Shown: positions 6,458-21,578 of the stretch, piece after piece
How positions within the stretch are numbered: the first letter of the stretch is position 1
Layout: the number at the start of each line of letters is the position of its first letter
IMG/VR virus record: IMGVR_UViG_3300006030_000108
Location: 1 to 23,689 of that record
Strand: one strand, 5' to 3'
DNA length: 23,689 bases
From: a virus
Notes under the pieces: model-generated
What the model was told of the DNA's origin: nothing
The model's input: the letters and a program-made list of their open reading frames with translations, nothing else
The model's database searches: none
Made by a program: the position numbers and the translations under genes

Positions 6458-7089
6458 TACAGGACAACCTGACAGGCTTTGAAAGATATGCGGGTGAATT
6501 TAACATCCGACTGGATGTCAACCGAGCCTGGTACGATGCAGGCCAGAAAAGTTGGAATTTTAAGCGTCACAACATCATCGACCGCCTCACCGTTGCGGAT
6601 GCGGGAAGCAACCGAAAAGGTTGCCGTGTCGCCTGATCCGTCGCTTGTGACGGTTTCTAGGACGCGGTGGTAGCCGTACCTAGTCGCAACGGAGATCATG
6701 TCGCCAACCGTGAGCGTGTAAGACGCAGGCAGACCCTTTAGCTGTAACCCGTATGAGCCAGAGAGAGCTTTAATCTTGACCGTGTTAGAGCCGACAATCG
6801 AGCCAGTCGGGTCAGCCTTGGGATAGCGGCGCTTCGTGTTGTAGCACCAGAATGTTTGCTGCGACCCTTGCAAGGCTTCTATAAGCGCCTGCGCCCGCGC
6901 GGCATCGTCGTCGTTCATTACAGTTGTTTGGATGTCCGCCATCCATAATTCCGGGCCAAGGTCTTTACCCAGAACCGCGCCGGATGATTGATTGCTCATT
7001 TCCTGTTGGGGAACGAGTTTTGGCACGATAGCCGGGAGGGGGAGAAGGTCGATAAAATTTGCAGTCGATAGCGGATACGAGATGGTCAT
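6457..7089 (-). CDS. Minor tail protein, distal-tail-like
   Basis: The protein has 210 residues. It follows the tape measure gene directly (TAATG overlap) and precedes the other tail tip genes, the place of lambda M or of a distal tail protein. The order of motifs LLPLPAIVP, LGPELWMADIQTT, QTFWCYNTKRRYPKADP and LKGLPASYTLTVGDMISV is typical of a family found after tape measure genes in alphaproteobacterial phages: an N-terminal part, a short stretch rich in aromatic residues, then a beta-barrel-like part. I do not know a formal family name. No signal peptide or membrane segment is visible. Confidence 0.72.
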   Translation of the reverse strand: MTISYPLSTANFIDLLPLPAIVPKLVPQQEMSNQSSGAVLGKDLGPELWMADIQTTVMNDDDAARAQALIEALQGSQQTFWCYNTKRRYPKADPTGSIVGSNTVKIKALSGSYGLQLKGLPASYTLTVGDMISVATRYGYHRVLETVTSDGSGDTATFSVASRIRNGEAVDDVVTLKIPTFLACIVPGSVDIQSDVKFTRISFKACQVVL

Positions 7090-8891
7090 TACCTTACCCT
7101 GCTATCGTTTGCAATTTGCATGACGCGATTGGGAAGAACATGCCTGCTGAAATGCGCAACGACATTGCTGGAAGCGCGCAACACTTTAGCGTTTAGATCA
7201 TCGCTCAGGGATATTTCGACAAAAACCCGCTGGTCCGTTGCGGCATCCTTCATCGGCGTGACGGTTGCGGGACCGCGGATTATTTCCGGCCCCCTTTCGC
7301 CAGCGATACCCCACTGACCCGCAGGGATTGTGCCGCCTTCCGCAAACAAACCAGAAAACGCCGAAAGTATCCCGCCGAAAAACCCGCCACCGCCGCCACC
7401 GCCGCCAGAACCGAGGGACGATTCGATTGCCTTCGCGATTTGCAGCTTGATTATTAATTGCGCAACGCCAAGGATCATGCTCCCCATCGCCTGCAAGAAA
7501 TTCTTAGAGCCCTGCATAGCCGCTTCACCAAGGGCCATGATGTTTTCGGCGGCAGACATTGCGATGAATCGGTTTGTTTCCGCTTGACGCTGCTTCATCT
7601 CCTCGGACATTTGTTGATAGTGCGCAACTATCTCGTCATTCTGCGCCTTTCGCTTCGCATTTGCGTCATCTACGCCCCTTGAAACGAGTTCACTCCACTC
7701 GCGAGCGTAACGCATCGACTCGATCCAGGAGCGGTAATCGTCCTCACGGCGCTGGTTAAATCCGTCGTACCAGACCTTATTTGCTTCAGCGATTTGCTTT
7801 TGAGCGTTGGCCGTAAACTCGGCCATCGCCTCGGCGCTGGCTTTTGCCGCCTCGTCTCGTACGCGATACCCGGCAAGCGGTGATTTCGTGATTGCGCCTG
7901 CCGGAAGATCGAGATTTGCAACCGGTAAATCCATTGGGAGGTTGCTTGTCGTTGACCTCGCGCCGGGCGTTGTCCACGCCTTAGATGCCAATGGGTTTGT
8001 AGTTCCCATTGCCATATTTGCGCCCTGGCTAAAACTTGAGCCCATCGCCTTAAGGGCGTCAACAATCTTATTGGCAGACCATAAAATCGCCGTTAGCTCA
8101 GAGGCAATAAAACTTAGCGCTGGCGCTGCTTGCGCCTTCAAATGCTCCCAAGATTGCCCCATCTTGGTAACAGCATCATTCATTTTCTTTGCGGTGTCGC
8201 CAGAGACAACCCGCCCAAGCTCTTTCTGTTTTTCTGTAACCTCAGAAACCGATTTGGAAAGTTCTGCCATTGCTGGCACAACGTATTTGCCCAGCTTGTC
8301 ACCAAGCAATTCGTTGAGGGCGTTCAGGCGTTGCGTTTCGCTGGACATACCCGCTGCGCCACGCGCTACAAGCGGCAAGATGTTTTCCGCTTTAGCAAAA
8401 GCGCTTGATACAGTATTGACCGACAAGCCGAGCGCCATAAAACGCTCGCGGGCTTCTTTCGACCCAGCCTGCGCCTCGCCAATGCGATCCGTGAGGCGCG
8501 CAAGGATGCGGTCCATAACTTCGGCGCTTCCGCCGTTGTCCGTTAGCGCAGCCCTGTAGGCTTGCAGGGCCTCGACAGAAACGCCAACCTGCTTGGCTTG
8601 ATCCACAAGGGCCGCCGTGCTGGTAATCACGGACCTGGCAAAAGCGGCAACGCCCGCAGCCCCAACCCCTATTCCAGCCGCTCCGAGAAGGCCGCGAAGG
8701 CTGACAAGCTCCTTCGCCATATTGGTCACATTGACCGTTGTGCTCTTGAATGAGCGATCAATTACGGCAAGCATCCGATTTGAGTTGGCCGCGAGAGACG
8801 ATAATTCCTGCCGCGCCTTTTGTGTGCCAGCGGTAAACGCCGCCGTGTTCATGGACAGCGGGACGTTTAGAGCGCCAATCGTTGTCGTCAT
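7089..8891 (-). CDS. Tail tape measure protein
   Basis: The 600-residue protein has the usual tape measure layout. It has an N-terminal helical part, a hydrophobic Gly/Ala segment at about 67-89 (LLGAAGIGVGAAGVAAFA), long helical stretches to about 440 and a second hydrophobic segment near 463-488. A run of eight glycines ends at about residue 503 and is followed by FAEGGTIPAGQWGIAGERGP, a very common tape measure C-terminal block. It follows the frameshifted tail chaperone genes with an ATGA overlap, as expected. The protein sets tail length; at about 1.5 angstrom per residue it predicts a short tail of roughly 90 nm, which is an estimate from known tape measures rather than a measurement. 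Confidence 0.95.
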   Translation of the reverse strand: MTTTIGALNVPLSMNTAAFTAGTQKARQELSSLAANSNRMLAVIDRSFKSTTVNVTNMAKELVSLRGLLGAAGIGVGAAGVAAFARSVITSTAALVDQAKQVGVSVEALQAYRAALTDNGGSAEVMDRILARLTDRIGEAQAGSKEARERFMALGLSVNTVSSAFAKAENILPLVARGAAGMSSETQRLNALNELLGDKLGKYVVPAMAELSKSVSEVTEKQKELGRVVSGDTAKKMNDAVTKMGQSWEHLKAQAAPALSFIASELTAILWSANKIVDALKAMGSSFSQGANMAMGTTNPLASKAWTTPGARSTTSNLPMDLPVANLDLPAGAITKSPLAGYRVRDEAAKASAEAMAEFTANAQKQIAEANKVWYDGFNQRREDDYRSWIESMRYAREWSELVSRGVDDANAKRKAQNDEIVAHYQQMSEEMKQRQAETNRFIAMSAAENIMALGEAAMQGSKNFLQAMGSMILGVAQLIIKLQIAKAIESSLGSGGGGGGGGFFGGILSAFSGLFAEGGTIPAGQWGIAGERGPEIIRGPATVTPMKDAATDQRVFVEISLSDDLNAKVLRASSNVVAHFSRHVLPNRVMQIANDSRVR

Positions 8892-9100
8892 TTTCTCAGC
8901 GCCTTCCGCGCGCGCGCATCCGCACCAGCAACAGCCGATGCTTCACGCTGCCGCTTGTCCATGTCCTCGTTTTCAAGCCTGAAATAAGCCATCCACTCAG
9001 AGAGCTCGTGCGATGTCATTCGAGACATCATCTCCGCATGTGTCATTTTTAATTCGCGCGCCAGCGAGAATTGAAACCGCCTCGTCTGGCGCTTTTTCAG
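8888..9100 (-). CDS. Tail assembly chaperone T part, made by -1 frameshift from the G gene
   Basis: This frame has no well-placed start of its own and continues the preceding chaperone gene after a -1 slip at the A AAA AAC heptamer. The fusion would contain 116 residues of the first frame plus 70 from this one, 186 in total, continuing ...DALAKKLKKRQTRR. The segment MTSHELSEWMAYFRLENED is the hallmark of gpT-like proteins in HK97- and lambda-type tails. The C-terminal region is charged and ends ARKALRK. In lambda the short G form and the GT fusion bind the tape measure and tail tube subunits during assembly. The stop overlaps the tape measure start (ATGA). An internal ATG (MTHAEMM) could start a separate product but has little ribosome-site support. 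Confidence 0.88.
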   Translation of the reverse strand: MKKRQTRRFQFSLARELKMTHAEMMSRMTSHELSEWMAYFRLENEDMDKRQREASAVAGADARARKALRK

Positions 9101-9106
9101 TTTTTT
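9058..9106 (-). promoter_or_regulatory. Programmed -1 ribosomal frameshift signal (slippery A AAA AAC plus hairpin)
   Basis: On the minus strand the zero-frame codons GCA AAA AAC TGA contain the heptamer A AAA AAC at 9106-9100, a classic X XXY YYZ slippery site, directly before the stop of the first chaperone frame. Seven bases later a hairpin begins: GCGCCAG (9092-9086) pairs with CTGGCGC (9064-9058), and above one bulged A, CGAG (9084-9081) pairs with CTCG (9068-9065). The loop is 12 bases. The order and spacing are those of known -1 frameshift stimulators, and the -1 frame runs into the gpT-like motif. Confidence 0.92.
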
Positions 9107-9447
9107 GCGAGTGCGTCCACATCCGACGAGAGGACGGCGGATAGCCGCGAGGCAACCGCCCATAGCCTATTCATCGCGCGCGCCGATTTCTTGGCGAGCG
9201 CGGAGATGTCATCCTCGGAAAAAAGGCGGTTCCCCTCGTCATCGACGCAACAAAACGCGACCAGCTTGGCCCTGATGTCCTGCGGCGTTGTCACGTTTCC
9301 CTTGGAATCAAGATAGGTCATAGCCTCCCATCTATCTCGTTCCGAGGCCATTAACGCGCGGACGCGCACGATCCCGCCCCACTCGGGAACCTCCACATCT
9401 TCAAACGGCAGATCGTCAGCCTTGAGAATATCCTCCCGGTTAAGCAT
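9097..9447 (-). CDS. Tail assembly chaperone G-like, short form
   Basis: The 116-residue protein starts MLNREDILKADDLPFEDVEV and ends DALAKN at a stop that lies immediately after the slippery heptamer. Its start overlaps the stop of the tail tube gene (TAATG). Small acidic proteins with a motif like VPEWGGIVRVRALMASERDR followed by a helical region are found in this place in many siphophages as the first of two tail chaperones. Most ribosomes should make this short form and a minority the fusion with the downstream frame. It is an assembly factor and not expected in the mature virion. Confidence 0.88.
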   Translation of the reverse strand: MLNREDILKADDLPFEDVEVPEWGGIVRVRALMASERDRWEAMTYLDSKGNVTTPQDIRAKLVAFCCVDDEGNRLFSEDDISALAKKSARAMNRLWAVASRLSAVLSSDVDALAKN

Positions 9448-9857
9448 TAGGCCACCGCCCGCGTTACGTTGCCGGACGAGATCACGAACTTCGCGGAGGC
9501 AGCCGCCCTGTCACCAACGGATTGCCCGAAGGGTTGGTAGTCCGTCAGTATCCCGGTGAATTGATATTCCGGGTTGGTGGACGTGGTGCTGCCGCTCGTC
9601 GGCTTAATGGTGAGGGCCGTCGATGTCCCAAGCAATGCGAATAGCGTGGAGTCCACATTGCTGGAAGCGTAGTCCTGATTGAAAGTCAGATCGAGCGTTG
9701 CATCCTTAAGGCCACCAAGCCGGGCGTGATAGGTCGCGCCCATAGCCGTGGAATCCTGCGTTTCAGCCACTACGTTGAGCGTGGCCTGGGTTACGTGATC
9801 CGAGAGATTTACAGAGTTGACGGTAATTTTAGCGTCAGTAAGAACAAAGGCTGCCAT
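9447..9857 (-). CDS. Tail tube protein, short paralogue
   Basis: The 136-residue protein is rich in Thr, Ser and small residues and predicted to be mostly beta strand, as expected for a tail tube subunit. Its N-terminus (MAAFVLTDAKITVNSVNLSD) and the block QDSTAMGATYHARLGGLKDA match those of the upstream 236-residue protein, so the two genes are paralogues. A good ribosome site, AAGGAG, precedes the ATG and overlaps the end of the upstream gene region. It lies between the tail terminator and chaperone genes, the standard place of the major tail protein. Which of the two copies builds most of the tube cannot be told from sequence. Confidence 0.82.
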   Translation of the reverse strand: MAAFVLTDAKITVNSVNLSDHVTQATLNVVAETQDSTAMGATYHARLGGLKDATLDLTFNQDYASSNVDSTLFALLGTSTALTIKPTSGSTTSTNPEYQFTGILTDYQPFGQSVGDRAAASAKFVISSGNVTRAVA

Positions 9858-9867
9858 AGGAAGCTCC

Positions 9868-10578
9868 TTATAAAATACCCATTGAACCGATTATTGCGAA
9901 GGACGGCGTACCGCCGCCAACCGTGAATTTGAATCTCCAATAATCGTCTGTCACAGCGCCAGACACCGTTTTTTGAGCCGCGCCTGCGGAAGTAATTTGC
10001 GTGAAGGTGGCGCGCGTTGTTGGAGTGGTAAACCCGGCATTGTCATCGCTCTCTATTGTCACATCGAGAGTCGGAGACGAGCCGGAGGCGGCTGTCACAT
10101 GTATATTTGCGTAAAGCGTCTGCGTGGCTGAGATCGCGCCTAGCTGCTGCCCGGTTCCGTTTCCGGTCGAAGTCTTTGTACCGTTCTGCATCAGCAGCCC
10201 GCTCGCGCATGGCGCGGTTGACTGAGCCCCGGCTGAGAATTTGAACATATCGCCAACGGCAGCGCCGATCTGATATTCGGCTGATAGGGCCTTGAATATG
10301 TAAGCCTTGTTTCCGACTGTCGTTGTGGCCGCAGCCGTGACCGGCAACTCCGCCCCCAATGATCCGCTTGTTATCGCCAAGTCCGTGGCGTAATCCCAAT
10401 AGCCCTCCACCTGAACGCCGCAGGACTTGAGGCCAGCCGCGCGCGCGCGATAAGCCGCCCCGAAAACAGTTGCGTCCTGGACATCTGCTTGCAGGCTCAC
10501 AGCTAGAGAATTGGAGACGCCCGCCAAGGCGTACTGACCAATCCAAAGCCCGGCATCCGTTAGAATAAACGTGGACAT
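9868..10578 (-). CDS. Tail tube protein, long paralogue with extra C-terminal domain
   Basis: The protein has 236 residues. Residues 1 to about 130 align with the adjacent shorter tail protein: MSTFILTDAGLWIGQYALAG, QDATVFGAAYRARAAGLKSC, and YQIGAAVGDMFKFSAGAQST line up with equivalent blocks there. The remaining hundred residues form an additional beta-rich domain (QTLYANIHVTAASGSSPTLD, then DDYWRFKFTVGG) of a kind found on many phage structural proteins. It could decorate the outside of the tube, as the Ig-like domain of lambda gpV does. GAGG eight bases before the ATG supports the start, and the gene follows the DUF3168 protein by two bases. Confidence 0.8.
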   Translation of the reverse strand: MSTFILTDAGLWIGQYALAGVSNSLAVSLQADVQDATVFGAAYRARAAGLKSCGVQVEGYWDYATDLAITSGSLGAELPVTAAATTTVGNKAYIFKALSAEYQIGAAVGDMFKFSAGAQSTAPCASGLLMQNGTKTSTGNGTGQQLGAISATQTLYANIHVTAASGSSPTLDVTIESDDNAGFTTPTTRATFTQITSAGAAQKTVSGAVTDDYWRFKFTVGGGTPSFAIIGSMGIL

Positions 10579-10580
10579 TT

Positions 10581-10970
10581 TTATTCCTCGTAAATAAGCC
10601 TTACATCAACCAGGGCGCGATATATTTCGGCATCGTCGTCGTATTCGTCATTCGACGAAGAAATGAATGTGTCTTGAATGGTGACGGGGCTGCTTGCGGA
10701 CCACCGCTGCAATCTTGAAACTATGGCCGCAGAAAGAAGCCTCATTCCGTCGAAGGTTTCCGACCAGCCGTCAATCTGAAATCTTGTATCTACGATTTGT
10801 GTATCAGAGCCCATTGCTGAATAGCGCGTCTCGGCAATTCGCTGATAGGTGACGCAGGGAAATAAACAGTCTTGCGGAAACCTGACCGGATAGACGCGAG
10901 TTGCGACAAGCGGGTATAGATCACCGGCCCCGTCCGTCAGGCGGGAGTAAAGCGCAGCCTCAATCGTCAT
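10581..10970 (-). CDS. Tail terminator / completion protein (DUF3168)
   Basis: The 129-residue protein matches DUF3168 in length and in motifs: MTIEAALYSRLTDGAGDLYP, then VRFPQDCLFPCVTYQRI, a central VDTRFQIDGWSETFDGMRLL and a C-terminal ALVDVRLIYEE. Members of this family sit on the head-proximal end of the tail tube, stop its growth and help it join the head, as lambda gpU does. The gene follows the gp10-like gene with no gap (the upstream stop TAA abuts the ATG) and precedes the tail tube genes, which is the standard order. Confidence 0.9.
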   Translation of the reverse strand: MTIEAALYSRLTDGAGDLYPLVATRVYPVRFPQDCLFPCVTYQRIAETRYSAMGSDTQIVDTRFQIDGWSETFDGMRLLSAAIVSRLQRWSASSPVTIQDTFISSSNDEYDDDAEIYRALVDVRLIYEE

Positions 10971-11552
10971 TTAGCGGCCTATGAAAAACCGATTGCGGGA
11001 TGAAAATCCCGATTTGGCGTATGGTCCGGCAAGCCGCGCCGCCGCATCCTCAATTCCGGCACCAAGTTTTGAGCCGATCATGTTGAGGGCTGCCATCTGC
11101 GTAGATTCCCACGATGGCCGGAGAAACGGGCGGGCGGCAACATGCCTGATTTTGCGCCCGGCATGGCTCGTTAAAACCCATCCATATTCTAGGAAGCGCA
11201 GGTAGAACGCCTTAGGCCCCACGCCCGCGAGGGCGGCAGCCGATATTCCAGAATCTCCAACAATAGCCGCAATCTCTCCAAGCTCTGAATTTCTAGCCAG
11301 CCTTGCGCGTATCTGCCTTTTTCCGAAACCGGGTTCGCGATTGAACTCCTTACCCGTGGGCTTGCCCTTCTTTCTGTATTTGTAAATGTGAGACTCCGCA
11401 CCTATGGGGCATCTTGATTTCATCGCCGAAGAAACAACGCGAGCGCCAGCCCTTAGAGAGTTAGAGACAACCTTTTTGGCAATCTCGTCTGGCAACATTT
11501 GCAGGAGCTTGTCCAACTCACTAGCGCCCTCAATAGATACTAGGTTTGTCAT
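10971..11552 (-). CDS. HK97 gp10-like tail completion protein
   Basis: The protein has 193 residues. The N-terminal part, GASELDKLLQMLPDEIAKKV followed by SNSLRAGARVV, and the later KAFYLRFLEYGW and AARPFLRPSWES blocks are characteristic of the HK97 gp10 family. The middle contains a basic stretch (YKYRKKGKPTGKEF). Family members act at the neck, joining the tail to the filled head. The ATG overlaps the head closure stop as ATGA, and the order connector, head closure, gp10, DUF3168, tail tube is the usual one in HK97-type phages. Confidence 0.9.
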   Translation of the reverse strand: MTNLVSIEGASELDKLLQMLPDEIAKKVVSNSLRAGARVVSSAMKSRCPIGAESHIYKYRKKGKPTGKEFNREPGFGKRQIRARLARNSELGEIAAIVGDSGISAAALAGVGPKAFYLRFLEYGWVLTSHAGRKIRHVAARPFLRPSWESTQMAALNMIGSKLGAGIEDAAARLAGPYAKSGFSSRNRFFIGR

Positions 11553-11866
11553 TCGACCTTCGCCGTGGATTTGATTTCTAAACCCTGCCGCCTGCCGACT
11601 TCTGAAATAGAAGTAATATCGTAAATATCACCGGCATAGCTTATCCGGTGCTTTGCCGTGACATCCGAGCGATACCTGATAGTGAATGTCTTGGTTGAGC
11701 GGGCCTTGTCACCCGCAGCCTCAAGACCCTCGCTGCCGCCTTCGGCATCGACACTGGCCCACACGGTCGCGAGCGTTGACCAAGATTGGCTGACGGCCCC
11801 GCTGCTCGTCCGCGTTTCGGTTACTTCCTGGATCGTTATTCTGCGATCCGCCTTGCCGATCTGCAT
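11549..11866 (-). CDS. Head closure / head-tail adaptor protein (SPP1 gp16-like)
   Basis: The 105-residue protein has the family signature: an N-terminal GKADRRITIQEVTETRTSSG, the motif WSTLATVWASVDAEGG, then FTIRYRSDVTAKHRISYAGD followed by IYDITSISEVGRRQGLEI. These small beta-barrel proteins bind under the connector, close the head after packaging and provide the surface for the tail. It lies between the gp6-like connector (one base away) and gp10, as expected. Confidence 0.92.
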   Translation of the reverse strand: MQIGKADRRITIQEVTETRTSSGAVSQSWSTLATVWASVDAEGGSEGLEAAGDKARSTKTFTIRYRSDVTAKHRISYAGDIYDITSISEVGRRQGLEIKSTAKVE

Positions 11867-11867
11867 T

Positions 11868-12464
11868 TTAGACCCAAGAAACGATGTAAGGCGTTAAGCT
11901 GGCATCCTCGTCCCACATAGAGCTAACCACGTTGCCGACAATGCGGTTCTGCCGGTTCTCGTACATGTCGCCTATGCGGTTCAGAAGGTTCTGGATAATG
12001 GGACGCGGAATTGCGCCGGATAGACCGCCATTCGAGACGCTCGCGTATCCCGCAACATAGCGAATGCGAATAGCGTTTGGCTGCGATCTGATGCTTGGAT
12101 AGCTTTGACCATAGGCGGGTTGTATGATCGCCATGCTAGAGCCCTGGTCGATCACGTCGTAGTAGCTAGACGACAGCGTTTGCTCCACGCCGCTGGTGTC
12201 TAGGTATTTCACGCTCGATACACTCACCAATGGCGGCAGCGGGATTTCAATGATCTGTTGCCAGTCCGGCAAACGCAGTTCCCATGTCTGCTGCACCAGG
12301 CATCGACCAAGGATGCCATCCCTACCGTCCAGCATGGCGGTAGCGGATTCGATCAGAGAGTCGATATAGGCGTCAGAGTTGTTGTCATCGACGCGAAGAT
12401 GCTCCTTCGCCTCTATTAGCGTGACGGGATGCCTTTCCGGGGCCGTGATTAGATGCAGGCTCAT
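11868..12464 (-). CDS. Head-tail connector protein (HK97 gp6-like)
   Basis: The protein has 198 residues. It begins with LITAPERHPVTLIEAKEHLR, followed by VDDNNSDAYIDSLIESATAM, the recognised start of gp6-like connectors. The pattern PLPPLVSVSSVKYLDTSG, then IRIRYVAGY and a helical end with PRPIIQNLLNRIGDMYENR completes the family. A ring of this protein binds the portal and prepares the head for the closure protein. Its ATG overlaps the upstream small adaptor gene stop as ATGA. Confidence 0.92.
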   Translation of the reverse strand: MSLHLITAPERHPVTLIEAKEHLRVDDNNSDAYIDSLIESATAMLDGRDGILGRCLVQQTWELRLPDWQQIIEIPLPPLVSVSSVKYLDTSGVEQTLSSSYYDVIDQGSSMAIIQPAYGQSYPSIRSQPNAIRIRYVAGYASVSNGGLSGAIPRPIIQNLLNRIGDMYENRQNRIVGNVVSSMWDEDASLTPYIVSWV

Positions 12465-12742
12465 GGGCTATCCGTGCAGCGGAGTTGAACATCCCTGACA
12501 CCGATCTGACCGTCACTGGCCGTGATCGTGTTTCGGAGCGTGTATTGAACGCCATAGGTGCAGCCGGTAATTTTGGTCTGCGTTGTCGTGCTGTCGTTTA
12601 TCTGTCCAGAAAGCACGGGGCCGGTCGGAGATATGGTCCAGGAAGAACTTGATATGGTGGCGGAGCCGAGCCAACCCTCCGCACCCCAGTCAATGTCCCA
12701 GATCAAAGTTTCTCCCGGGCCGATGATGCGATATGCGCTCAC
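12461..12742 (-). CDS. Small fibre-tail adaptor-like protein
   Basis: The 93-residue protein begins at a GTG that overlaps the stop of the repeat-rich fibre gene as GTGA. The pattern GETLIWDIDWGAEGWLG, SSWTISPTGPV, and CTYGVQYTLRNTITASDGQ near the end matches a family of small phage proteins often annotated as fibre-tail adaptors and encoded next to connectors. It appears to be a single Ig-like beta sandwich. Direct contact with the 913-residue protein encoded just upstream is plausible from the overlap, but is inferred. Confidence 0.7.
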   Translation of the reverse strand: MSAYRIIGPGETLIWDIDWGAEGWLGSATISSSSWTISPTGPVLSGQINDSTTTQTKITGCTYGVQYTLRNTITASDGQIGVRDVQLRCTDSP

Positions 12743-15480
12743 GATAAGACCTCTATCCCGTTGTGTGAGCCAGCGCTAATCACGATGCTCCCCCTGCTTG
12801 CATTCACAGTGTTATCAGTCCTATTTGCCGTGATCGTGCGAGAAACTGGGAACATAATACCGTGCGAGATAACCCCACCCGTGACTGCGATCTGTCCGTC
12901 AACAATAGTGATAATGGTACCTTGTGACTGAATTAAGTAACTAACATCCAGGCCATTAAGTACAATGCTGCCTTTGATGACTGTCAGCATGTCGGCAACG
13001 CTCAAAGACGCGCCAGACATATAAATATCGCCCTTGACGCCGAGCATTGAAAATGCCGCTTGGCTTTGCGCCCCGCTGAGAGTAAGCAGCGCAGGTGGTG
13101 CTTCTAGGCTGTCATAAATAGCGCCAGCGCCACCAGATAACGAAATGGTGCCGGTAGAAGTTCCCAAAGCGTCAACTATGGGTGCCGGTTTCCCGGATAT
13201 GAGTAAGTCGCCCTTGACGCCCGCAAACGCTGCCGTGGTAGCAAGGGACCGGCCCGATATTGTAATGCCGCCAAAAACGCCACCAAGGGCGTCTGCTAAC
13301 TGCAACGCCTTACCAGCAAGGACAAGATCGCCCTTGATTAGCGTGTATTGCTGACCCTGTGATATAGAGCCAGCCTGCCCAGCTATAACTAAATCGCCCT
13401 TAATCCCGGCAAATACTTCTGCGATCTTGGCAGCATTACCGGAAATTACTAGGTTTCCGACAACGCTTGTTAGCGTAAGGCCAACGCTAATCGAGCTTAC
13501 AGAGCCTGTTAGCGATAAATCGCCCTTAATACCACCAAAGGCTGTGGCAAGCGCCCCGGCACTTCCAGTAAGGATAATGTCGCCTTTGACCGACAAATAC
13601 TGCTGATATGTCTGTATCGAGCCCGATTGACCGCTGAGGCTCAGACCCCCCTTTACCGTTGCAAAGGCGTCTGCGATACCGATGATCTTCCCGGAAATCG
13701 CCAGATCGCCCTTTACAGACAAGAGCGCGTTGACAATGCTCGATGCCGATGAGCTTAGGAGAATTTCGCCATTTATAACCGTAAAGGAAGTGGTGGCAGT
13801 AAATAGCCAGCCGGTGTTCGACCCTCCGTTGACGTTACCGTTCGTGGTGTACGAATTGAACGTAGCGCCGCCAGTGGCCGAGCTGCGCGTGATGGTGCAG
13901 CCGTAAGCGTCATTAGTGCCGCTGCTGTCAGAAATCGTCCAGGTATTTACGCCATCGTCGCTATCGACCGCAATCGCGTTCGCGCCACTTGCAGGCATCG
14001 AAAGCGACGTAATCGCGAAGGTCTTTCCGTGTTCGTATTTCTGATTTGTATTGGCTTCCCAATAAAGATCGTTGCAGGTGAAGCCGCTGTAGAGATAAGA
14101 GGCCGCGCTGCCGCCAGTGTTGTAACCAACCTTGATGTTGTTCCAGGTTTTCCCGTAGCCATAAAAGTAGGCACTGTTGCCGTCGATCACGTTTCGCAAA
14201 TAAACGGTGCCGCTGCTTGGGTTGATCGTGATGTTAGCAGAATTTCCCGTGAACGTATAAAGCTCGACGGTTCCGGTTCCCCAATTGATGGTAACTGCTC
14301 CGTCATCACCAACAGACTGCATCACGCTGATGTAATGATCGAAATTCCCCCAAGTGAAAGTTCCAATACGGGGGTTGATTTGGTATCCGGTCAGGCTATC
14401 AGCAATGGAGAGGCTACTGGACGTATCACCGAAAAGACTCACGATGACGCCAGTCTGGTAGTTGCGGAATGATTTTCCGGCGCTCGTCAACGTGTGCGAA
14501 ACGCCGTTACCGTAAAAATCTAGGCTGAGATTTTTACCCGCAGGAAGCGTCAGCGTCATCCCTGACGCGGCGGTGAAGTCTCCGTAACACTTAATTCTTG
14601 AACCGTTCGTGGCGTCGACTGCTAAGGTGCCTGTGTAGCCTGTGCAGATGACCGATTTAGCCAAGCAATCGTAGCCGGTAATATCGGCAAGCGTGACAGT
14701 GCCAGAGCCAGAATTGGCATCAAACCTTGCGCTGTGAGTAGAATCTGGGACCGGCGCTCCACCAGTCCCGCCGCTTTGATAGGACCACTTACTCCCCGCC
14801 GTGCCGTCCCATGTCGCAGTGCCGCCGACCCAGTAATAATAAAGAAAATCAACCGAAGATGTATTACCCGATAGCGTCAGATCGCCCTTAACACCAGCGA
14901 ATGAATCCGTCAGCTTCGCAGCCCTACCAGTGAGGGTCAGATCGCCCCTCACCAGCAGGCATGACGCGGTGATCGTCGGCGTCGTCGTCGCGGTGATGGA
15001 CGTTCCGCTTAACGCAACGACCTTAAGCTGAATTTTATCTCCAAACGCAACGCTTGATCCGACAATCTGAACGCCAAACTCGTATTCGGTGTTATTATTT
15101 GCCGCCAAGTCAACGCTGGTCGAGGTGGAGCCGTCCTCGGAATATCGGCCAGTGACGTAGGTGCCTGTGCCGCCTAGGCGGGCCGTTGTAACCGCAGCCT
15201 CGTCAGCGTCGGATGAGGCATCGACTGCTTTCACAATCGTGCTGCCGGTCGTTACGTCCTGAAAAGCGCCGCCGTTCTTGTTGGCCTGTAGCTTTACTGT
15301 GTGCGCTGCGGGGTTGCCGCCCGCTGTTTCCTGTATGCAGAACCGAATACGAAATGTCGTATCTACGTTGACCGAGAAATTCGTATCAACCGCCGCAATC
15401 CATGTTGGTGCGGTTTCGACCGACGAGGAATCCGACCGGCCCCGGAAATGGCTTTGCGATAGTACCGGGGTTGTGGTCAC
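12739..15480 (-). CDS. Fibre-like virion protein with interrupted 20-residue repeat array
   Basis: The 913-residue protein starts at a GTG overlapping the previous stop (GTGA). Residues 1 to about 175 form a beta-rich domain common on phage fibre proteins (QSHFRGRSDSS, RIRFCIQETAGGNPAAHTV, YEFGVQIV). Two 20-residue repeats follow at 178-213, then an inserted region of about 356 residues (214-569) that begins YYWVGGTATWDGTAG and is rich in Ser, Thr, Gly and aromatics, as in beta-helical surface proteins. Fifteen more repeats occupy 570-880, consensus (V/I)KGDLxLSGxxxxIxxAFAG, then a 33-residue tail. No signal peptide or membrane segment is visible. A receptor-binding or head-surface fibre is the best guess, since it lies in the head-neck gene block rather than after the tail tip. 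Confidence 0.75.
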   Translation of the reverse strand: MTTTPVLSQSHFRGRSDSSSVETAPTWIAAVDTNFSVNVDTTFRIRFCIQETAGGNPAAHTVKLQANKNGGAFQDVTTGSTIVKAVDASSDADEAAVTTARLGGTGTYVTGRYSEDGSTSTSVDLAANNNTEYEFGVQIVGSSVAFGDKIQLKVVALSGTSITATTTPTITASCLLVRGDLTLTGRAAKLTDSFAGVKGDLTLSGNTSSVDFLYYYWVGGTATWDGTAGSKWSYQSGGTGGAPVPDSTHSARFDANSGSGTVTLADITGYDCLAKSVICTGYTGTLAVDATNGSRIKCYGDFTAASGMTLTLPAGKNLSLDFYGNGVSHTLTSAGKSFRNYQTGVIVSLFGDTSSSLSIADSLTGYQINPRIGTFTWGNFDHYISVMQSVGDDGAVTINWGTGTVELYTFTGNSANITINPSSGTVYLRNVIDGNSAYFYGYGKTWNNIKVGYNTGGSAASYLYSGFTCNDLYWEANTNQKYEHGKTFAITSLSMPASGANAIAVDSDDGVNTWTISDSSGTNDAYGCTITRSSATGGATFNSYTTNGNVNGGSNTGWLFTATTSFTVINGEILLSSSASSIVNALLSVKGDLAISGKIIGIADAFATVKGGLSLSGQSGSIQTYQQYLSVKGDIILTGSAGALATAFGGIKGDLSLTGSVSSISVGLTLTSVVGNLVISGNAAKIAEVFAGIKGDLVIAGQAGSISQGQQYTLIKGDLVLAGKALQLADALGGVFGGITISGRSLATTAAFAGVKGDLLISGKPAPIVDALGTSTGTISLSGGAGAIYDSLEAPPALLTLSGAQSQAAFSMLGVKGDIYMSGASLSVADMLTVIKGSIVLNGLDVSYLIQSQGTIITIVDGQIAVTGGVISHGIMFPVSRTITANRTDNTVNASRGSIVISAGSHNGIEVLS
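12841..13773 (-). repeat. Array of 15 in-frame repeats of 20 to 25 codons
   Basis: The coding strand carries 15 consecutive units beginning at residues 570, 590, 610, 632, 652, 674, 694, 716, 736, 756, 776, 796, 816, 836 and 861. Eleven are 20 residues long, three are 22 (units 3, 5 and 7) and one is 25 (unit 14). The first residues are usually KGD(L/I) followed by alternating hydrophobics and SG or TG. Units are diverged at the DNA level but share short cores, such as the plus-strand string atcgccctt. A strict period of about 20 fits a beta-solenoid or a repeated strand-turn-helix unit. Confidence 0.9.
14842..14949 (-). repeat. Two further repeat units ahead of the inserted domain
   Basis: Residues 178-197 (RGDLTLTGRAAKLTDSFAGV) and 198 to about 213 (KGDLTLSGNTSSVDF) match the units of the main array. 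The second is cut short where the inserted region with YYWVGGTATW starts. Their presence shows that one solenoid-like array was split by, or grew on both sides of, a separate domain. Confidence 0.85.
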
Positions 15481-15824
15481 GGAAACGGTCTCTCGGCTGC
15501 GTCAGTGGATGATTTGGGCGGTAAGCGAGGGTCGCTAACCGCGCGCTCGAATATCTCCCTAAATGTTTTTAGCGGCACGGATCGGCCAATAAGCACTATT
15601 TTATCGGTTCCTGGGCGTGTCAGGTAATCGAGCAGCCCGCAAAGGTCGCACGTGATCCAGTCGCCATTCTCGAAGGCGTAATAGTCCGCGCCGTGCCAGA
15701 TGACGCGGCCATGATCGTATGACCTGACGGCAACGCAGATAACGCCCCAGCGAGGAATGTCAGACGCAGCCGCGTCCTCATCAGTTGCGGTCGTGCCGTC
15801 CGAATAACTGACGATCCACTTCAC
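15477..15824 (-). CDS. Conserved phage protein of unknown function
   Basis: I start this gene at the GTG at 15824, which overlaps the previous stop as GTGA and gives 115 residues beginning MKWIVSYSDGTTATDEDAAA. The longer in-frame extension is a shadow. The pattern W-x-(V/I)-x-Y-x-D-G-T near the start, IPRWGVICVAV, WHGADYYAFENGDWITCD, then GLLDYLTRPG and KIVLIGRSVPLKTFREIFER is found in a family of small phage proteins placed beside fibre genes; I know no function for it. It ends in a GTGA overlap with the repeat-rich fibre gene, so the two products are probably used together. Confidence 0.72.
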   Translation of the reverse strand: MKWIVSYSDGTTATDEDAAASDIPRWGVICVAVRSYDHGRVIWHGADYYAFENGDWITCDLCGLLDYLTRPGTDKIVLIGRSVPLKTFREIFERAVSDPRLPPKSSTDAAERPFP

Positions 15825-16099
15825 GCAAGCGATGCCTCGGTGACGATGGTGCCGCCCGTAAATGCCGTCCAGCTGATAACCTTGTTCTCTACCCAATCGA
15901 GAATGTTTGCCGGGGTGTTCGCCACCTTGAATTGGTACGGATGAACAGCGCCCCCGGCCTGGCCGTCAACAAAGCCCTGCACGGTAATAATTGTTTCGGC
16001 AGTGCCGTCTCGCTTAAACGAGATATGCAGATCAGTGACACGATAGACCGTGGCCGAAACTTTCGTGCTATCGTTTGTGATGGTCTTTAGAATTGGCAT
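15821..16099 (-). CDS. Small protein of unknown function in structural block
   Basis: The 92-residue protein starts at the ATG at 16099 that overlaps the stop of the lipoprotein gene as TAATG, with a purine-rich GGAGGGAG stretch a little upstream. It begins MPILKTITNDSTKVSATVYR and has alternating polar and hydrophobic residues (ETIITVQGFVDGQAGG, then FKVANTPANILDWVENKVIS), which suggests a small beta-rich structural subunit. No catalytic motif is present. Its function is unknown; the genes on both sides overlap it. Confidence 0.65.
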   Translation of the reverse strand: MPILKTITNDSTKVSATVYRVTDLHISFKRDGTAETIITVQGFVDGQAGGAVHPYQFKVANTPANILDWVENKVISWTAFTGGTIVTEASLA

Positions 16100-16428
16100 T
16101 AGAGCATTCTCCCTCCGGCATGGTCCGTAGGCCAGCCGTTGACGTGTCCCCATTCGTGCCTGAGCACACAGCCCTGATACGAGCGCCCGCTGTCCAGGCT
16201 TGGGATAATGACCAGATTGCCCCGGCTACAACCGACCCTATGAGGTTCCGCGCCCATTGATCGGCAAAGACCATCGACATCGGCCATGCCAAGTTCGCGC
16301 GTGATAACCGCGCCAGATGGCGCGTGGTCCATAACCTCTGGCGGCTGCATAATGTCGGGACATTCCGGCTTGCGCTCGCAGGCAGCGAGCATGGCTAGAC
16401 TAAGTAAGCTCGAACAGACCGTTCGCAC
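16099..16428 (-). CDS. Putative lipoprotein with HEXXH metallopeptidase-like motif
   Basis: The best frame begins at a GTG at 16428 and gives 109 residues. The N-terminus MRTVCSSLLSLAMLAAC looks like a short lipoprotein signal peptide with lipobox LAAC, the modified cysteine being residue 17. Near the C-terminus is LRHEWGHVNGWPTDHAGG: HEWGH fits the zinc-binding HEXXH of metallopeptidases, with a possible third ligand in the following DH. The product would thus be an outer-membrane or periplasmic lipoprotein with a zinc site. There is no clear ribosome site, and the gene overlaps its upstream neighbour by 29 bases, so the start is uncertain. A lipoprotein in the middle of structural genes is unexpected. 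Confidence 0.68.
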   Translation of the reverse strand: MRTVCSSLLSLAMLAACERKPECPDIMQPPEVMDHAPSGAVITRELGMADVDGLCRSMGAEPHRVGCSRGNLVIIPSLDSGRSYQGCVLRHEWGHVNGWPTDHAGGRML

Positions 16429-16852
16429 TGGGATTGATAATCAGTTTATTGCCGCTCGATACGGTAAAGACGGCGGACGTAAGCGACGCATAGCCCACCA
16501 GCTTATTCGCGGATGCCTTGGCACTCGTGCCAGTGCGCGCGACTACGACATAAAACATGATCGACGTTATGTTTGCCGATGCTGAATGCGATATGGCCGT
16601 AAAATTAAACCGCATGACGCCAGCCGATGCGCCGGTTGACCATGTGCGCGTCATCGCCTTGCCCGCCAGCGTGTAGCCGCCAGCCGATGCAATCTGGTTC
16701 GTGAGCGAGCCATACGTCGAGAGCGTATTGGTCGCGGCATTCGACGTTGACTTCATCAAGTGCATGTCAAACGAGGTGCCATCTAAGTCAATGGTGCCGT
16801 CAGCCATGTATCGCTTAAACCGCTTGTAGAACTTGAACGCCTGGACCGCCAT
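16400..16852 (-). CDS. Probable minor virion protein, conserved phage family
   Basis: The 150-residue protein starts MAVQAFKFYKRFKRYMADGT, with DLDGTSFDMHLMKSTSNAAT next, and ends with VFTVSSGNKLIINPSANGLF. This layout (a short Phe/Tyr-rich start, a LxTS motif, a WSTG block, YVVVARTG, LVGY and a last strand) recurs in proteins encoded in the structural blocks of many phages and is usually left unnamed. It is predicted to be all beta. AGGAG lies just before the ATG, overlapping the end of the DUF115-like gene. A capsid- or fibre-associated role is inferred from position only. Confidence 0.72.
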   Translation of the reverse strand: MAVQAFKFYKRFKRYMADGTIDLDGTSFDMHLMKSTSNAATNTLSTYGSLTNQIASAGGYTLAGKAMTRTWSTGASAGVMRFNFTAISHSASANITSIMFYVVVARTGTSAKASANKLVGYASLTSAVFTVSSGNKLIINPSANGLFELT

Positions 16853-17701
16853 TTATTTCTCCTGTTCCGGCATTTCCGCGCCGGTTTTCAATAAATAAGA
16901 GAGCAAACCATCGCCATGAACATCAATTTCAAAATGTTCTCCGTTCACGCGAATAACGTCTAGAAAATTACGAGCCTGCGCCGCCTGCCATGCGCTGCAA
17001 AGGTACTCCCGGCCAGCTACTTTGAACAAGGCCGCGCCCTCATTGTCATTAAGTGACTGCGGATAGGCGTGGTGTGTTCCGTCAGGCTTGTAGCAACTGT
17101 CAATTCCAAACATATGCTGAAATCGAAATCCCAATATTCTCAAAAGCAGGATTGACGTTATGCCGACTGTGCCAGCCGCAGGCACTCGCACCCACCTGCC
17201 CTTGCCGTAAAATTCGTCAAGAATTGATATTTCTTCGCCAGCGGTTTCTGCTACAGCATGGAATATGTATGTGTCACGATCATCCGCTGCATCAAACATA
17301 ACTGGGTCGCATTGCGATGCGAGCATTGTCTTGCAGTTGGGTATTTTGACGTTGAGAAAGTCAACATTTTGAGGGCGGGCATCCAGTATCACATGGAGTG
17401 ATGGCTTTAAGTTACGCTCCATAAGCCACTTTGCGGAGCCATTTAACGCGACAATCTTGGCCCCATTAAAATATAGCTCGCGTAATTCATCGTAAACGCT
17501 TGGCTCGTTAAGTGACCAGCCGCCCCCGACAATGCAAACGGGTACTTTACTCGTTTGGTGCGGACTGATCTGCGGTAATTGCAGACGAATTGAGCTGCGT
17601 ACATTTGAAAATAAGGTTTCGTGGTCGGTATTCACTTTCATTACGGAAGCGTCAAACTTTTCACCTTCGGCCAGTGTGTACGTGTCGTTATCGAGCGACA
17701 T
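16853..17701 (-). CDS. DUF115-like protein (MptE/MAF-type), possible glycosyltransferase
   Basis: The protein has 282 residues. After an 50-residue lead it contains PVCIVGGGWSLNEPSVYDEL, then GAKIVALNGSAKWLMERNLK and PSLHVILDARPQN, the core pattern of DUF115 proteins. That group includes MAF flagellin-glycosylation factors and archaeal MptE-like pyrophosphokinases. Later blocks VRVPAAGTVGITSILLLRIL and MFGIDSCYKPDG fit the same Rossmann-like fold. The gene overlaps the preceding methyltransferase by 14 bases and has GAGGGGG upstream. In this context (next to a methyltransferase and a methyltransferase-glycosyltransferase fusion), transfer of a sugar to a virion or host surface protein is the likeliest role; this is inferred. 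A hand count over 17281-17460 gives about 48% GC, lower than a sample from the capsid gene. Confidence 0.78.
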   Translation of the reverse strand: MSLDNDTYTLAEGEKFDASVMKVNTDHETLFSNVRSSIRLQLPQISPHQTSKVPVCIVGGGWSLNEPSVYDELRELYFNGAKIVALNGSAKWLMERNLKPSLHVILDARPQNVDFLNVKIPNCKTMLASQCDPVMFDAADDRDTYIFHAVAETAGEEISILDEFYGKGRWVRVPAAGTVGITSILLLRILGFRFQHMFGIDSCYKPDGTHHAYPQSLNDNEGAALFKVAGREYLCSAWQAAQARNFLDVIRVNGEHFEIDVHGDGLLSYLLKTGAEMPEQEK

Positions 17702-18239
17702 AAAACACCCCCTCGCCCATCAGGTCGCGGGCTTCATGCACAATGCCCAATTCACGCAACAGATCACGCCACCAGACGAAGGGTTTAACCGTTAGGTGCA
17801 GGGCTTCGCCAACAAAGTCCCCGAAGTGATCTTCGGTGAAAGAGATCGAAAAGAACGCCTTGGGCGCAACTTGCAAAATACGATCAATGGCAAGGCCAAC
17901 AAATTCTGTCGGTATATGTTCCATCACATCGCAGCAATAGGCGTAATCGTATGGACCGCCGCGCAAGTCGCGCCAGATCGTGCCGGTCGTCAGCGGTATA
18001 TCGTCGTGATCCCACGCCGTGTCAGTGAGATCGAACCCCCTGACGCTAAGGCCGCGAGATTTCAAAGCCCGCGTTGCCGCTCCAGCGCCGCAACCAACGT
18101 CAATCAGGGATTGGCCACGTTTAGGGGACGCAATCGACCAGAACATGTCAATGTGGGAAAGGCCGGGGGAGAATTTGGAATAATCGTCTATCGCCCATGC
18201 CCTTGCGTATTTCTCGCGTTCTTTCGCGGCGATGCTCAT
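17688..18239 (-). CDS. SAM-dependent class I methyltransferase
   Basis: The protein has 183 residues. Motif I is SLIDVGCGAGAATRALKSRG near residues 43-62, followed by VRGFDLTD (motif II region) and the acidic-aromatic block YDYAYCCDVMEHIPTEFVGL, typical of small Methyltransf_11/25-type enzymes. The last part, KPFVWWRDLLRELGIVHEA, is a common C-terminal element. It transfers a methyl group from S-adenosylmethionine; the substrate is unknown. The start overlaps the small upstream gene as ATGA. Given the sugar-related neighbours, O-methylation of a glycan is more likely than DNA methylation, and no DNA methyltransferase motif such as DPPY or NPPF is present. Confidence 0.9.
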   Translation of the reverse strand: MSIAAKEREKYARAWAIDDYSKFSPGLSHIDMFWSIASPKRGQSLIDVGCGAGAATRALKSRGLSVRGFDLTDTAWDHDDIPLTTGTIWRDLRGGPYDYAYCCDVMEHIPTEFVGLAIDRILQVAPKAFFSISFTEDHFGDFVGEALHLTVKPFVWWRDLLRELGIVHEARDLMGEGVFYVAR

Positions 18240-18415
18240 GGCTTACCCGCCTTTCGCGTGATGTAGTCACGCCCAGCCCGCATTGCAGCGGCAGGCTTGA
18301 CCAGCTCGGCAATGCCACGGGCAATCAGCGAGTTTGCAATGTTCTCTGGCATGTCGGGGATGACGTGCCCGGCAGACCAAATCCGCCACGCCTTTATAAG
18401 CTTGATCTTTGTCAT
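18236..18415 (-). CDS. Small phage protein of unknown function
   Basis: I start it at the ATG at 18415, which overlaps the upstream stop as ATGA and gives 59 residues: MTKIKLIKAWRIWSAGHVIP followed by a helical, Ala-rich end. A pattern of (I/V)K(A/F)xRxWxxGxVxxMPxxxAxxLIxRGIAE is common in very small phage proteins encoded near head genes; I do not know a function. Its stop overlaps the methyltransferase start (ATGA). The longer in-frame form lacks support. Confidence 0.68.
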   Translation of the reverse strand: MTKIKLIKAWRIWSAGHVIPDMPENIANSLIARGIAELVKPAAAMRAGRDYITRKAGKP

Positions 18416-19581
18416 TTCCAGGCATCCTGCGGTTTGCCGCTTTTCCAATAGTCGGGCACTCGCTGGTAGATGCCTCCCAGATTGCGGCCCGGCCACTTTA
18501 TGACCGCCTCAATGTGCCCCACTGAAACGCGGTTTGCGCAGTAAAGCGTCTTGCCGCTGCGTTCCCAGTTGCGCCAGAAATAAATATCTTCGTCCTCATG
18601 CCCCTCACCCCACGAACCGTCTTTAGAGGGTGTAGAGAGGAACCAGGGCTTTTTGACATCTCGCAGCGATGCAGCCCTAATCAGTGTCAGGCCGAAATGG
18701 CCGGTCTTGAGCTTAAGCAGATCATCGTCGAATAAATTGGCTGGAACCCTCCCCGGTTCGGTTCCCGGCGGTAAATCGACCGTCGCTAAAACCGAATCCC
18801 AGCCTCTTGCCTGCTGCATGGCGCAGATTGCGTCTGCGTGCTGATTAAGCAGGTATAAGCGAATGAGCGTCAGTACGTCTTGTGCTGAAAAAAGCGTATC
18901 GAAATCAATCGTCAATATAGCGTCAGCACCGCCAGCAATGATGTCATCAAATCCGCGCTCAAGGCATTGCCCCCAATAAACGCCTTCATATGTCTGTAAA
19001 GGGATGCCCAGCTTCGACAAATTCTCCGTTGTGCAGCGGTGATTGGCCGTCCAGTGAACGCGAGGCATCGACATTGCCGCGACAATGTTCGGCATTTTCT
19101 TTATTTTGGCAGGCTTCACCGCCCGCATGTTGAGAGATACGGGAAGCCGCGAGCAGTCGCTGGCGTCTGAATCCCACTTGCCAATGTCGGTCAGATTTGC
19201 CGCGCGGAAATAGTCAATAAGCGTCCGCTCGTTGAACAGCGATCTATGATAGTCGTCTGCGTCCGTCTGACCGCCCATCAAATATGCTTCTAGCGGTGCC
19301 TGCGAACCGGCGCTGTATTGCTCGACACACCAATCAAAATCAGGAACGGCAATCTTGAGAACGCCGCCCGGCTTTAGTTTTGAAGCCCAATGCTTGATGA
19401 CTTCCGGGGCTTCGGTATGTGAGAAGTGCTCAAGGATGTGACTGGCGCGGATAACATCAACGCTCTCATCCTTAATTTCAACGCCATTGTGTGAAAGCGG
19501 AAACGCCTCGTCTCCGTTTTTACGGTCAAGATTCAGGTAATACGGCAGCGGATTGCTGCCGGAGCCGATATTGATTTTCAT
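18412..19581 (-). CDS. Methyltransferase-glycosyltransferase fusion
   Basis: The protein has 389 residues when started at the ATG at 19581, where GGAG is well placed. Residues 1 to about 160 are a methyltransferase domain of the type found in polysaccharide loci: MKINIGSGSNPLPYYLNLDR, then ESVDVIRASHILEHFSHTEA and LKPGGVLKIAVPDFDW. From about 165 a second domain follows that looks like a GT-A-fold glycosyltransferase: GGADAILTIDFDTLF with a DxD-like pair at 226 and 228, and a late acidic block GEGHEDEDIYFW followed by VGHIE. Neither the sugar nor the acceptor can be read from the sequence. The gene is the first of four overlapping ones and lies just after a terminator-like hairpin. Confidence 0.83.
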   Translation of the reverse strand: MKINIGSGSNPLPYYLNLDRKNGDEAFPLSHNGVEIKDESVDVIRASHILEHFSHTEAPEVIKHWASKLKPGGVLKIAVPDFDWCVEQYSAGSQAPLEAYLMGGQTDADDYHRSLFNERTLIDYFRAANLTDIGKWDSDASDCSRLPVSLNMRAVKPAKIKKMPNIVAAMSMPRVHWTANHRCTTENLSKLGIPLQTYEGVYWGQCLERGFDDIIAGGADAILTIDFDTLFSAQDVLTLIRLYLLNQHADAICAMQQARGWDSVLATVDLPPGTEPGRVPANLFDDDLLKLKTGHFGLTLIRAASLRDVKKPWFLSTPSKDGSWGEGHEDEDIYFWRNWERSGKTLYCANRVSVGHIEAVIKWPGRNLGGIYQRVPDYWKSGKPQDAWK

Positions 19582-19602
19582 GGCTTCTCCAGAACCGTCC
19601 CC

Positions 19603-19661
19603 AAAAAACACGCGGCAGGCCGGGGGAGGGCCAGCTTTTCGGGAATGACCCTAGCCGCGCG
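19603..19661 (-). terminator. Terminator-like hairpin with U6 between capsid-associated and glycan genes
   Basis: On the minus strand CGCGCGGC (19661-19654) can pair with GCCGCGTG (19616-19609), eight pairs including one G-U, followed at once by TTTTTT (19608-19603). The loop is long (37 bases) and GC rich and may fold further. The U-run ends 21 bases before the ATG of the fusion gene, so a transcript must pass it to express the glycan cassette, unless a promoter is hidden nearby. The long loop makes it weaker than a textbook terminator. Confidence 0.6.
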
Positions 19662-20216: not shown

Positions 20217-21560
20217 TTATTCGCCCATCAGCGCGACAACCGCGCCAGCGTTGGAGCTATCGCCGGTCCCGTGCGCGACAATATCGAAGCGCTCGGTGCC
20301 AAGAATGGCGATTTGACGATTAGCGAAGCGGTAGCTGGCGTCACGCTCGACTTCCAAGCCGCGACGGTCGCCCATTGCGACGGCCATCGAGAGGTCGCCA
20401 AACAGGATCATCGCAACGTCAGAAGCGTCCGTCGTCGCCGAGGCGGGCGCGAGCATGGCGGGCGTAATCACAACATCATATCCGTTGTATTGGCGGATCG
20501 TGCGGCCCGATGCCTGGTCCTTGGTGACGCCACCGGAAGCTCCGATCAGGCGTTCAAAGACGTTCGCAAACATCGTTTGCGAGCAGTACCACTTGGGATT
20601 GCCGCGATCATAAACGTACTGCGGCAGCTTGCCCTGCACACTCGCAAGGTCCACCGCGTCGATTTCAGCCATCGTGTCATGGCCGCTTGCCGCATCAACG
20701 GCACCAGCCAAAGACCCAACGCCAGCGTTGAAGATCGAGCGCAGGCCCGTCATACCGCCATAGGTGGAAGTGCCGTCTCCGCTAAAGAGGCAGCCATCCT
20801 CAGCCTTGGCAAAAGCCCACGCCAATTCGCCGGAGAGAAGGTCGCCCATGGAGACGGCGGCGTCCTCGTCCAGATCGCGCGAAACATAGGTGAGCGCGGC
20901 CATCGCCTTCGCCGTCAGCCCGATCTGTCCATAAACCGGATCGGAGGTGGTAACGGCGGTGCCCTTGTCATCGACAAAATACGTGGTCAGGCCGCTGACC
21001 CATTTCGGAATGGTGATGCGGTCGCGCCCCATCGGGTACACGCGCAACTCCTGACGGGCCAATCCGTAATTGTCGCGGAGCGTGATGATTTCCATCGACA
21101 CTTCTTCGGGGACAAAGAAGCCGCCGGCGGAGTTGATGCCTTCCGACATCGCCTTTTGAACCATCAGGCCGTTTTCGCGGCACCAGTTCGCGGACTTCTC
21201 GTTGCCGAACATGGTCGCGAGGAAAAACTGCCCCACCTTGTGAGCGCGAGACAGAGAATTTTCGCCGCGAATGTTTTTGAGCGCGTGAGACGAAAGAACG
21301 CTGCGGGCGGCCGAGAGAGCGGGGACGCCATCGACAATGTTGATCGGCTGCGCCTTAGCGGCCTTCGCGGCAAGGATCGACTCCTCACGCTGAATCTCAG
21401 CGTCAAGCGTCTTGATCTCGTCAAGATGCGCGACGTGCGCCTTGCGCTCATCCTCGTTGAGAACGAGACGGCTTTCTTTCTCAGCCTTTTCAGTAATAAG
21501 TTCGGCAGCATTGATAATATCGGCCCGCTTTTCGCGGAGGGCCTTCAAACGATTGGACAT
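20217..21560 (-). CDS. Major capsid protein, HK97 fold
   Basis: The protein has 447 residues starting at the ATG at 21560, six bases after a strong AAGGAG site; a longer in-frame start would read into the hairpin. Residues 1 to about 75 form a charged coiled coil (RLKALREKRADIINAAELIT, ending near EIQREESILAAKAAK), the scaffold-like delta domain that the prohead protease removes. The rest is the HK97 fold: GGFFVPEEVSMEIITLRDNY, YVSRDLDEDAAVSMGDLLSG, GDGTSTYGGMTGL, RQYNGYDVVITPAML and a C-terminal RQIAILGTERFDIVAH. The subunits form the icosahedral head. Spacers with hairpins lie on both sides of the gene, unlike the overlapping genes elsewhere, which suits its need for high expression. Confidence 0.95.
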   Translation of the reverse strand: MSNRLKALREKRADIINAAELITEKAEKESRLVLNEDERKAHVAHLDEIKTLDAEIQREESILAAKAAKAQPINIVDGVPALSAARSVLSSHALKNIRGENSLSRAHKVGQFFLATMFGNEKSANWCRENGLMVQKAMSEGINSAGGFFVPEEVSMEIITLRDNYGLARQELRVYPMGRDRITIPKWVSGLTTYFVDDKGTAVTTSDPVYGQIGLTAKAMAALTYVSRDLDEDAAVSMGDLLSGELAWAFAKAEDGCLFSGDGTSTYGGMTGLRSIFNAGVGSLAGAVDAASGHDTMAEIDAVDLASVQGKLPQYVYDRGNPKWYCSQTMFANVFERLIGASGGVTKDQASGRTIRQYNGYDVVITPAMLAPASATTDASDVAMILFGDLSMAVAMGDRRGLEVERDASYRFANRQIAILGTERFDIVAHGTGDSSNAGAVVALMGE

Positions 21561-21578
21561 TGAAATCTCCTTTTGTCC

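Follow-up and report, generated by a model that had tools for sequence, protein, structure and literature searches.

A 17-unit repeat protein encoded beside a Gp77-like collar gene is a probable neck fiber of a siphophage

Few structures show collar-anchored neck fibers, whose flexible shafts are resolved poorly. The Pfam family PF23148 takes its name from the fiber-tail adaptor gp77 of podophage GP4. A passage of the paper on phage DEV presents the GP4 collar as a ring that encircles the head-tail adaptor with a 15:12 mismatch (PMC10925440), and a passage of the paper on Alishewanella siphophage LSH1 describes a GP4 protein as a fibril linking an adhesin to the collar (PMC13243795). A fiber of the GP4 fiber I type, made of bead and rope, was taken here to comprise an adjacent Gp77 collar gene, a bead homologous to chain 8JOU_a, a rope homologue, and a 15-fold ring with five fibers; structure 8JOU contains ten copies of the bead chain. 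Five fibers on a 15-fold neck ring have been described for cyanophage A-1(L) (PMC10966104) and for the DEV collar fiber gp53 (PMC10925440). We compared these systems with a locus in which a 913-aa repeat protein is encoded beside a Gp77-like gene. We propose, at a probability of roughly 0.7, that the protein is a neck (collar) fiber of a siphophage that is probably temperate, that its C-terminal end anchors it to a Gp77 collar, and that it bears adhesin domains at and near its distal end.

The window, meaning the whole stretch of DNA analyzed, is a complete IMG/VR record of 23,689 bases, with the minus strand coding for all of its main genes. A twin contig, 3300025848_000153, is identical across window positions 4742-16572 in the part compared and extends beyond the window start. 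That added region encodes an integrase and an Erf-like annealing protein, which makes a temperate phage probable. The gene order is portal, protease, capsid protein, a cassette of modification-type and small structural genes, the 913-aa fiber, the Gp77-like gene, connector, head closure, Neck1-type, terminator, two tail-tube proteins, tape measure, distal tail, hub, and J, with the names head closure, terminator, and protease assigned by eye. Coordinates of the features discussed are given in Table 1. Two tandem genes at 9447-9857 and 9868-10578 (minus strand) each matched families of major tail proteins (phrog_4574 and phrog_9522); the product of the latter gene is about 100 residues longer. 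Inside the head block, between capsid and fiber, three enzyme-like genes at 16853-19611 (minus strand) encode an MptE-like protein (PF01973) and two methyltransferases, one of which is extended by a long additional C-terminal half that resembles a glycosyltransferase by eye; they possibly serve surface or DNA modification. A 430-aa open frame at 20271-21563 on the plus strand is antisense to the capsid gene and is probably a by-product of codon usage.

Table 1. Positions of the fiber gene, its domains, and selected genes in the window
Feature	Position	Strand	Remarks
J/tail-tip protein	2635-5379	-	phrog_5616 match over first 606 residues
gp6-like head-tail connector	11868..12464	-	PF05135 and phrog_442
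Gp77-like collar / fiber-tail adaptor protein, 93 aa	12461..12742	-	PF23148, E 8.4e-14
Fiber protein, 913 aa	12739..15480	-	GTG start; 4-nt overlap with next gene
C-terminal tail, residues 879-913	12742..12846	-	putative collar-proximal end, from fused proteins
Repeat units 3-17, residues 567-878	12847..13782	-	period 20/22
Inserted 350-residue domain, YWVGGT-type, residues 217-566	13783..14832	-	
Repeat units 1-2, residues 176-216	14833..14955	-	
N-terminal beta domain, residues 1-172	14965..15480	-	putative distal fiber end
150-aa phrog_644 protein	16400..16852	-	same cassette as fiber; candidate fiber subunit only

The fiber repeat comprises 17 units of about 20 residues, arranged as 2 + 15. 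Units of the first group start at residues 176 and 196, and those of the second at 566, 588, 608, 630, 650, 672, 692, 714, 734, 754, 774, 794, 814, 834, and 859, with a 42-residue (20+22) super-period across residues 588-714. Self-similarity over residues 561-880 peaked at lag 20 (0.52) and lag 42 (0.27); among 2000 shuffles the highest value at any lag was -0.09. In the fiber, 12 copies of the motif G-x-hyd-x-hyd-[STA]-G-x4-hyd were counted, where 0.16 would be expected. A sequence-only reading of this DNA had reported 17 units in the gene, three of them with a spacing of 22 residues and one of 25; the periodicity, far above shuffles, bears this out, and one more spacing of 22 was found (566 to 588). 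The same reading had placed a domain of 356 residues between the two groups of units. The insertion stands, whereas its length is revised to 350 residues (217-566 being the best placement). A distant relative of the N-terminal domain (27% identity) precedes a 21-residue-period repeat in another locus, L099.

The domain boundaries were compared with L006, a relative from another metagenome that has 17 units in a 409-residue fragment. Its repeat continues where the window has the extra domain, and with residues 217-566 removed both flanks of the window protein aligned to L006 gap-free across the junction (score 987.5, compared to 907 +/- 8 and a maximum of 938 when the left flank was shuffled). 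Because the L006 repeat is uninterrupted, the middle domain is regarded as an insertion; judged by this alignment, the split in the window repeat is an insertion for which gain and loss are indistinguishable, and either event fell on a repeat boundary and left the repeat register undisturbed. The L006 fragment is incomplete at its start and may therefore carry a domain elsewhere. Identity to L006 was 57% over the common part of the fiber and approximately 90% for the Gp77-like gene and connector, indicating that the fiber diverges much faster than its neighbors. Third-position GC was 0.63 in the inserted domain versus 0.50 in the repeats. Limnohabitans phage DC31 and Methylophilaceae phage P19250A have domains like it (37-41% identical across part of residues 216-449) at the start of otherwise different proteins; from this distribution the YWVGGT domain looks like a mobile module.

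The gene next to the fiber matched PF23148, the Gp77 'fiber-tail adaptor' family, at 52.3 bits (curated cut-off 27), and a 12-sequence profile that includes it (A6) found the GP4 cryo-EM chain 8JOU_D at 5.1e-17. On these profile matches it is a member of the Gp77 collar family. It overlaps the fiber stop codon by 4 nt and sits directly before the head-tail connector gene, whose product would be the surface encircled by the collar. Gp77 is missing from Mesorhizobium, Paracoccus, and Rhizobium phages with a related J, and in the Mesorhizobium phage a single 213-bp gene is all that separates the capsid and connector genes. The placement of a fiber-like protein in the head-neck block, as first read from the letters, is thus supported, with a GP4-type collar gene adjacent and the connector gene next.

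Gp77 proved rare, being found in 5 of 385 alphaproteobacterial genomes and 14 of 399 genomes of a phylum-wide set (two genomes are common to both), and no close relative of the window Gp77 protein appeared in the bacterial-genome scan. A gp6-like connector directly followed 6 of the 12 separate Gp77 genes examined in bacterial genomes (L066, L088-L091, and L093). Proteins with a period of 20-22 residues were encoded directly upstream of Gp77 in L098 (z 18.6) and L096 (z 22), and repeats of the same period were fused to a C-terminal Gp77 domain in L069 (z 10.5) and L068 (z 7.4); the fused Gp77 domains scored 24-25 bits on the whole-protein scan (cut-off 27) and 29 bits in the genome search. Periodicity at z>=6 was present in 4/16 Gp77-linked ORFs versus 10/805 others (Fisher p 9e-5), a figure to be read with the facts that L068 and L069 share one genome, that L094 and L095 share another, and that the z>=6 threshold was chosen after seeing the data. 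Most Gp77 genes had no repeat protein directly upstream. In Burkholderia phage BcepIL02 the order is bead protein gp55, gp56, and Gp77 gp57; gp56, virion-associated and 285 aa long, has z 10.9 at lag 20, further periods of 22 and 42, and roughly 10-11 units counted by eye. Purified virions of phage JC1 contained the bead gp53 and the Gp77 homologue gp55, and the repeat protein gp54 was not listed (PMC9144972). The window repeat shares period, position, and partner with the other Gp77-locus repeats; its unit had no detectable homology to them by chained PSSM (z -0.8 to 1.0). As a separate observation, at L103:3977-4720 (Mycobacterium phage LilDestine) the Gp77-like gp22 is directly followed by bead-type gp23 (E 1e-13), a pair that adjoins genes annotated as minor tail proteins.

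Searches of Pfam, PHROGs, and PDB sequences with the fiber protein returned nothing significant. Hints of CE2_N (residues 392-437, E 0.019) and of LRR chain 8z5u (E 0.011) were below significance. N-terminal, repeat, and Gp77 queries had no matches in the phage collection, and neither a single-unit HMM nor a chained PSSM linked the window units to other repeats. A two-unit KGD pattern had no match in IMG/VR; it missed even the twin contig, so this result is not evidence of absence. Period-20 repeats in the C-terminal parts of the J proteins of L014, L020, and L022-L024 read AxTAAKIAAGA and were set aside as a different repeat.

The shaft was modeled with AlphaFold. The full 913-aa model was poor (pLDDT 47), whereas a model of 8 units was of moderate quality (pLDDT 69, pTM 0.68) with three short strands per 20-residue unit. 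Neither model, at low to moderate confidence, contained a helix, and a fibritin-type (T4 wac) neck whisker was rejected. Many of the folds nearest to the 8-unit model in PDB were beta-helices (NeuO, LpxD, GlmU, gamma-carbonic anhydrase, pectate lyase, and bactofilin; best E 0.025), and BFVD matches included phage proteins at a probability near 1. The model suggests a beta-solenoid, as the sequence-only reading had proposed from the strict period: the strands per unit agree with that proposal at moderate pLDDT, and the poor full-length model and the lack of any PDB fold match at E 0.001 or better speak against it. Left- and right-handed helices also matched alike, and the authors of the LSH1 study warn that a similar low-quality beta-helix prediction for gp34 may be a hallucination (PMC13243795). 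The shaft of the same neck fiber could be a beta-solenoid that stands alone, with 20 residues to a coil and no need of bead subunits, which would accord with the lack of a bead homologue in the window. We hold this for plausible at somewhat under even odds; it bears on the shaft alone and does not conflict with the neck-fiber explanation. The gene sets of GP4 and BcepIL02, by analogy, would favor a bead-clad rope.

The adjacent gene resembles a collar protein that pins fibers to the neck of another virus, and the 913-aa protein is therefore probably a neck fiber. The Gp77-like protein would encircle the head-tail connector as a ring, like Gp77 in GP4, and the C-terminal end of the fiber would attach to that ring, with the 20/22-residue repeats as the shaft. 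This orientation follows from the GP4 analogy and from the domain order of the fused proteins, which end in Gp77 and so would put the C-terminal side of the repeat at the collar and the N-terminal end distal. The N-terminal and inserted YWVGGT domains would then lie in the outer fiber, fit for contact with a cell surface, and may act as adhesin or payload modules that touch the host early. By analogy, the window protein, a putative virion component, may work like a collar-anchored neck fiber.

The 4-nt overlap with a gene whose profile reaches 8JOU_D, the connector next to it and next to half of the separate Gp77 genes examined, the period 20-22 proteins beside or fused to Gp77 in four bacterial ORFs and BcepIL02, their enrichment, and the J-related phages without Gp77 all argue for a neck fiber. 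The lack of detectable unit homology among Gp77-locus repeats and the many Gp77 genes with no repeat protein directly upstream count against it. Genome G009 also does: two of its prophage proteins (L068:7453-8766 and L069:8737-10881) combine 20-residue-period repeats with a C-terminal Gp77 and lie between J and lysis-type genes, a tail-fiber position downstream of J, so Gp77 is not always a neck protein. One repeat-Gp77 fusion of a G009 prophage, between J and the endolysin, speaks for a receptor-binding fiber of the tail tip that is encoded out of its place. No tail-fiber gene was recognized past J in the window or the twin contig, which suits either a neck fiber or such a misplaced tail fiber. 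However, the window gene lies upstream of J in the neck block rather than downstream of J or the hub, it overlaps a Gp77 gene that precedes the connector, and the repeat-Gp77 pair of L098 belongs to the neck block and that of BcepIL02 is close to head genes. J also has an extra C-terminal region of its own, the last 300 or so residues of which have no family match and look lectin-type by eye. The misplaced receptor-binding fiber raised in the sequence-only reading is unlikely, and less likely than a neck fiber in its proper place. The position between capsid and connector genes, among other small structural genes, would also suit a head-surface or vertex fiber, or a decoration protein unrelated to the collar; this leaves the Gp77 overlap and the recurrent Gp77 pairing unexplained, and we consider it very improbable.

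Compared with the collar-anchored fibers of podophage GP4 (PDB 8JOU), the likeness of the window lies in the Gp77 collar homologue adjacent to the 913-aa protein. A profile of related beads found GP4 chain 8JOU_a, and bead homologues were confined to Gp77 loci except for one marginal match in L052. No homologue of 8JOU_a was detected in the window (scores at most approximately 1 bit), which counts against the neck-fiber explanation, and the protein is therefore not filed as a GP4 fiber I. The 16400-16852 protein was unsupported as the bead, homology to 8JOU_a not being found, and a match of profile A7 to that chain stemmed from its phrog_240 members. Unlike GP4, the window belongs to a siphophage, one large protein bears the repeats together with the N-terminal and inserted domains, and the repeat has no sequence match to any PDB chain.

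BcepIL02 has the triad of bead, 20/22-period protein, and Gp77. Its gp56 and the window fiber both have periods of 20, 22, and 42, with no match in unit sequence. By inference gp56 may be a rope of the GP4 lineage; a PDB search with it returned no chain, and its equation with the GP4 rope is putative. The A-1(L) fibers differ in attaching to gp5, called there a unique neck protein (PMC10966104), and in DEV the collar is the N-terminal barrel of the fiber itself (PMC10925440). Outside these systems, GSFALTG-type repeats of EBPR siphovirus 2 gp72 and Manatee Spring podovirus ctVRi840 have the spacing motif of the window; among 999 ORFs of the loci compared, only gp72, ctVRi840, and the window family had at least three copies. 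The ctVRi840 repeat gene directly precedes a tail tubular / adaptor-like gene. Unit homology with the window was not established by single-unit HMM or PSSM.

The 20/22 repeat could be a general rope code of collar-anchored phage fibers, in which each unit docks one bead, unit number sets length, and adhesin domains slot between units. We regard this as rather doubtful; if true, the window would be the siphophage version, with 17 units, a slotted-in domain, and a presumed bead. A repeat protein beside or fused to Gp77 is a recurring unit that makes collar-anchored fibers findable from sequence. The gp34-gp36 module of LSH1, also a siphophage, has a proposed adhesin payload, fibril protein, and Ig-fold anchor; compared by description, it differs in lying downstream of the lysis genes and in an anchor that the authors matched to no Gp77, and it resembles the window in the poor beta-helix prediction for the C-terminal part of payload gp34 (PMC13243795). 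That part could, on this description, be a repeat shaft of the window kind, and the repeat-Gp77 unit offers a possible reason for its puzzling character.
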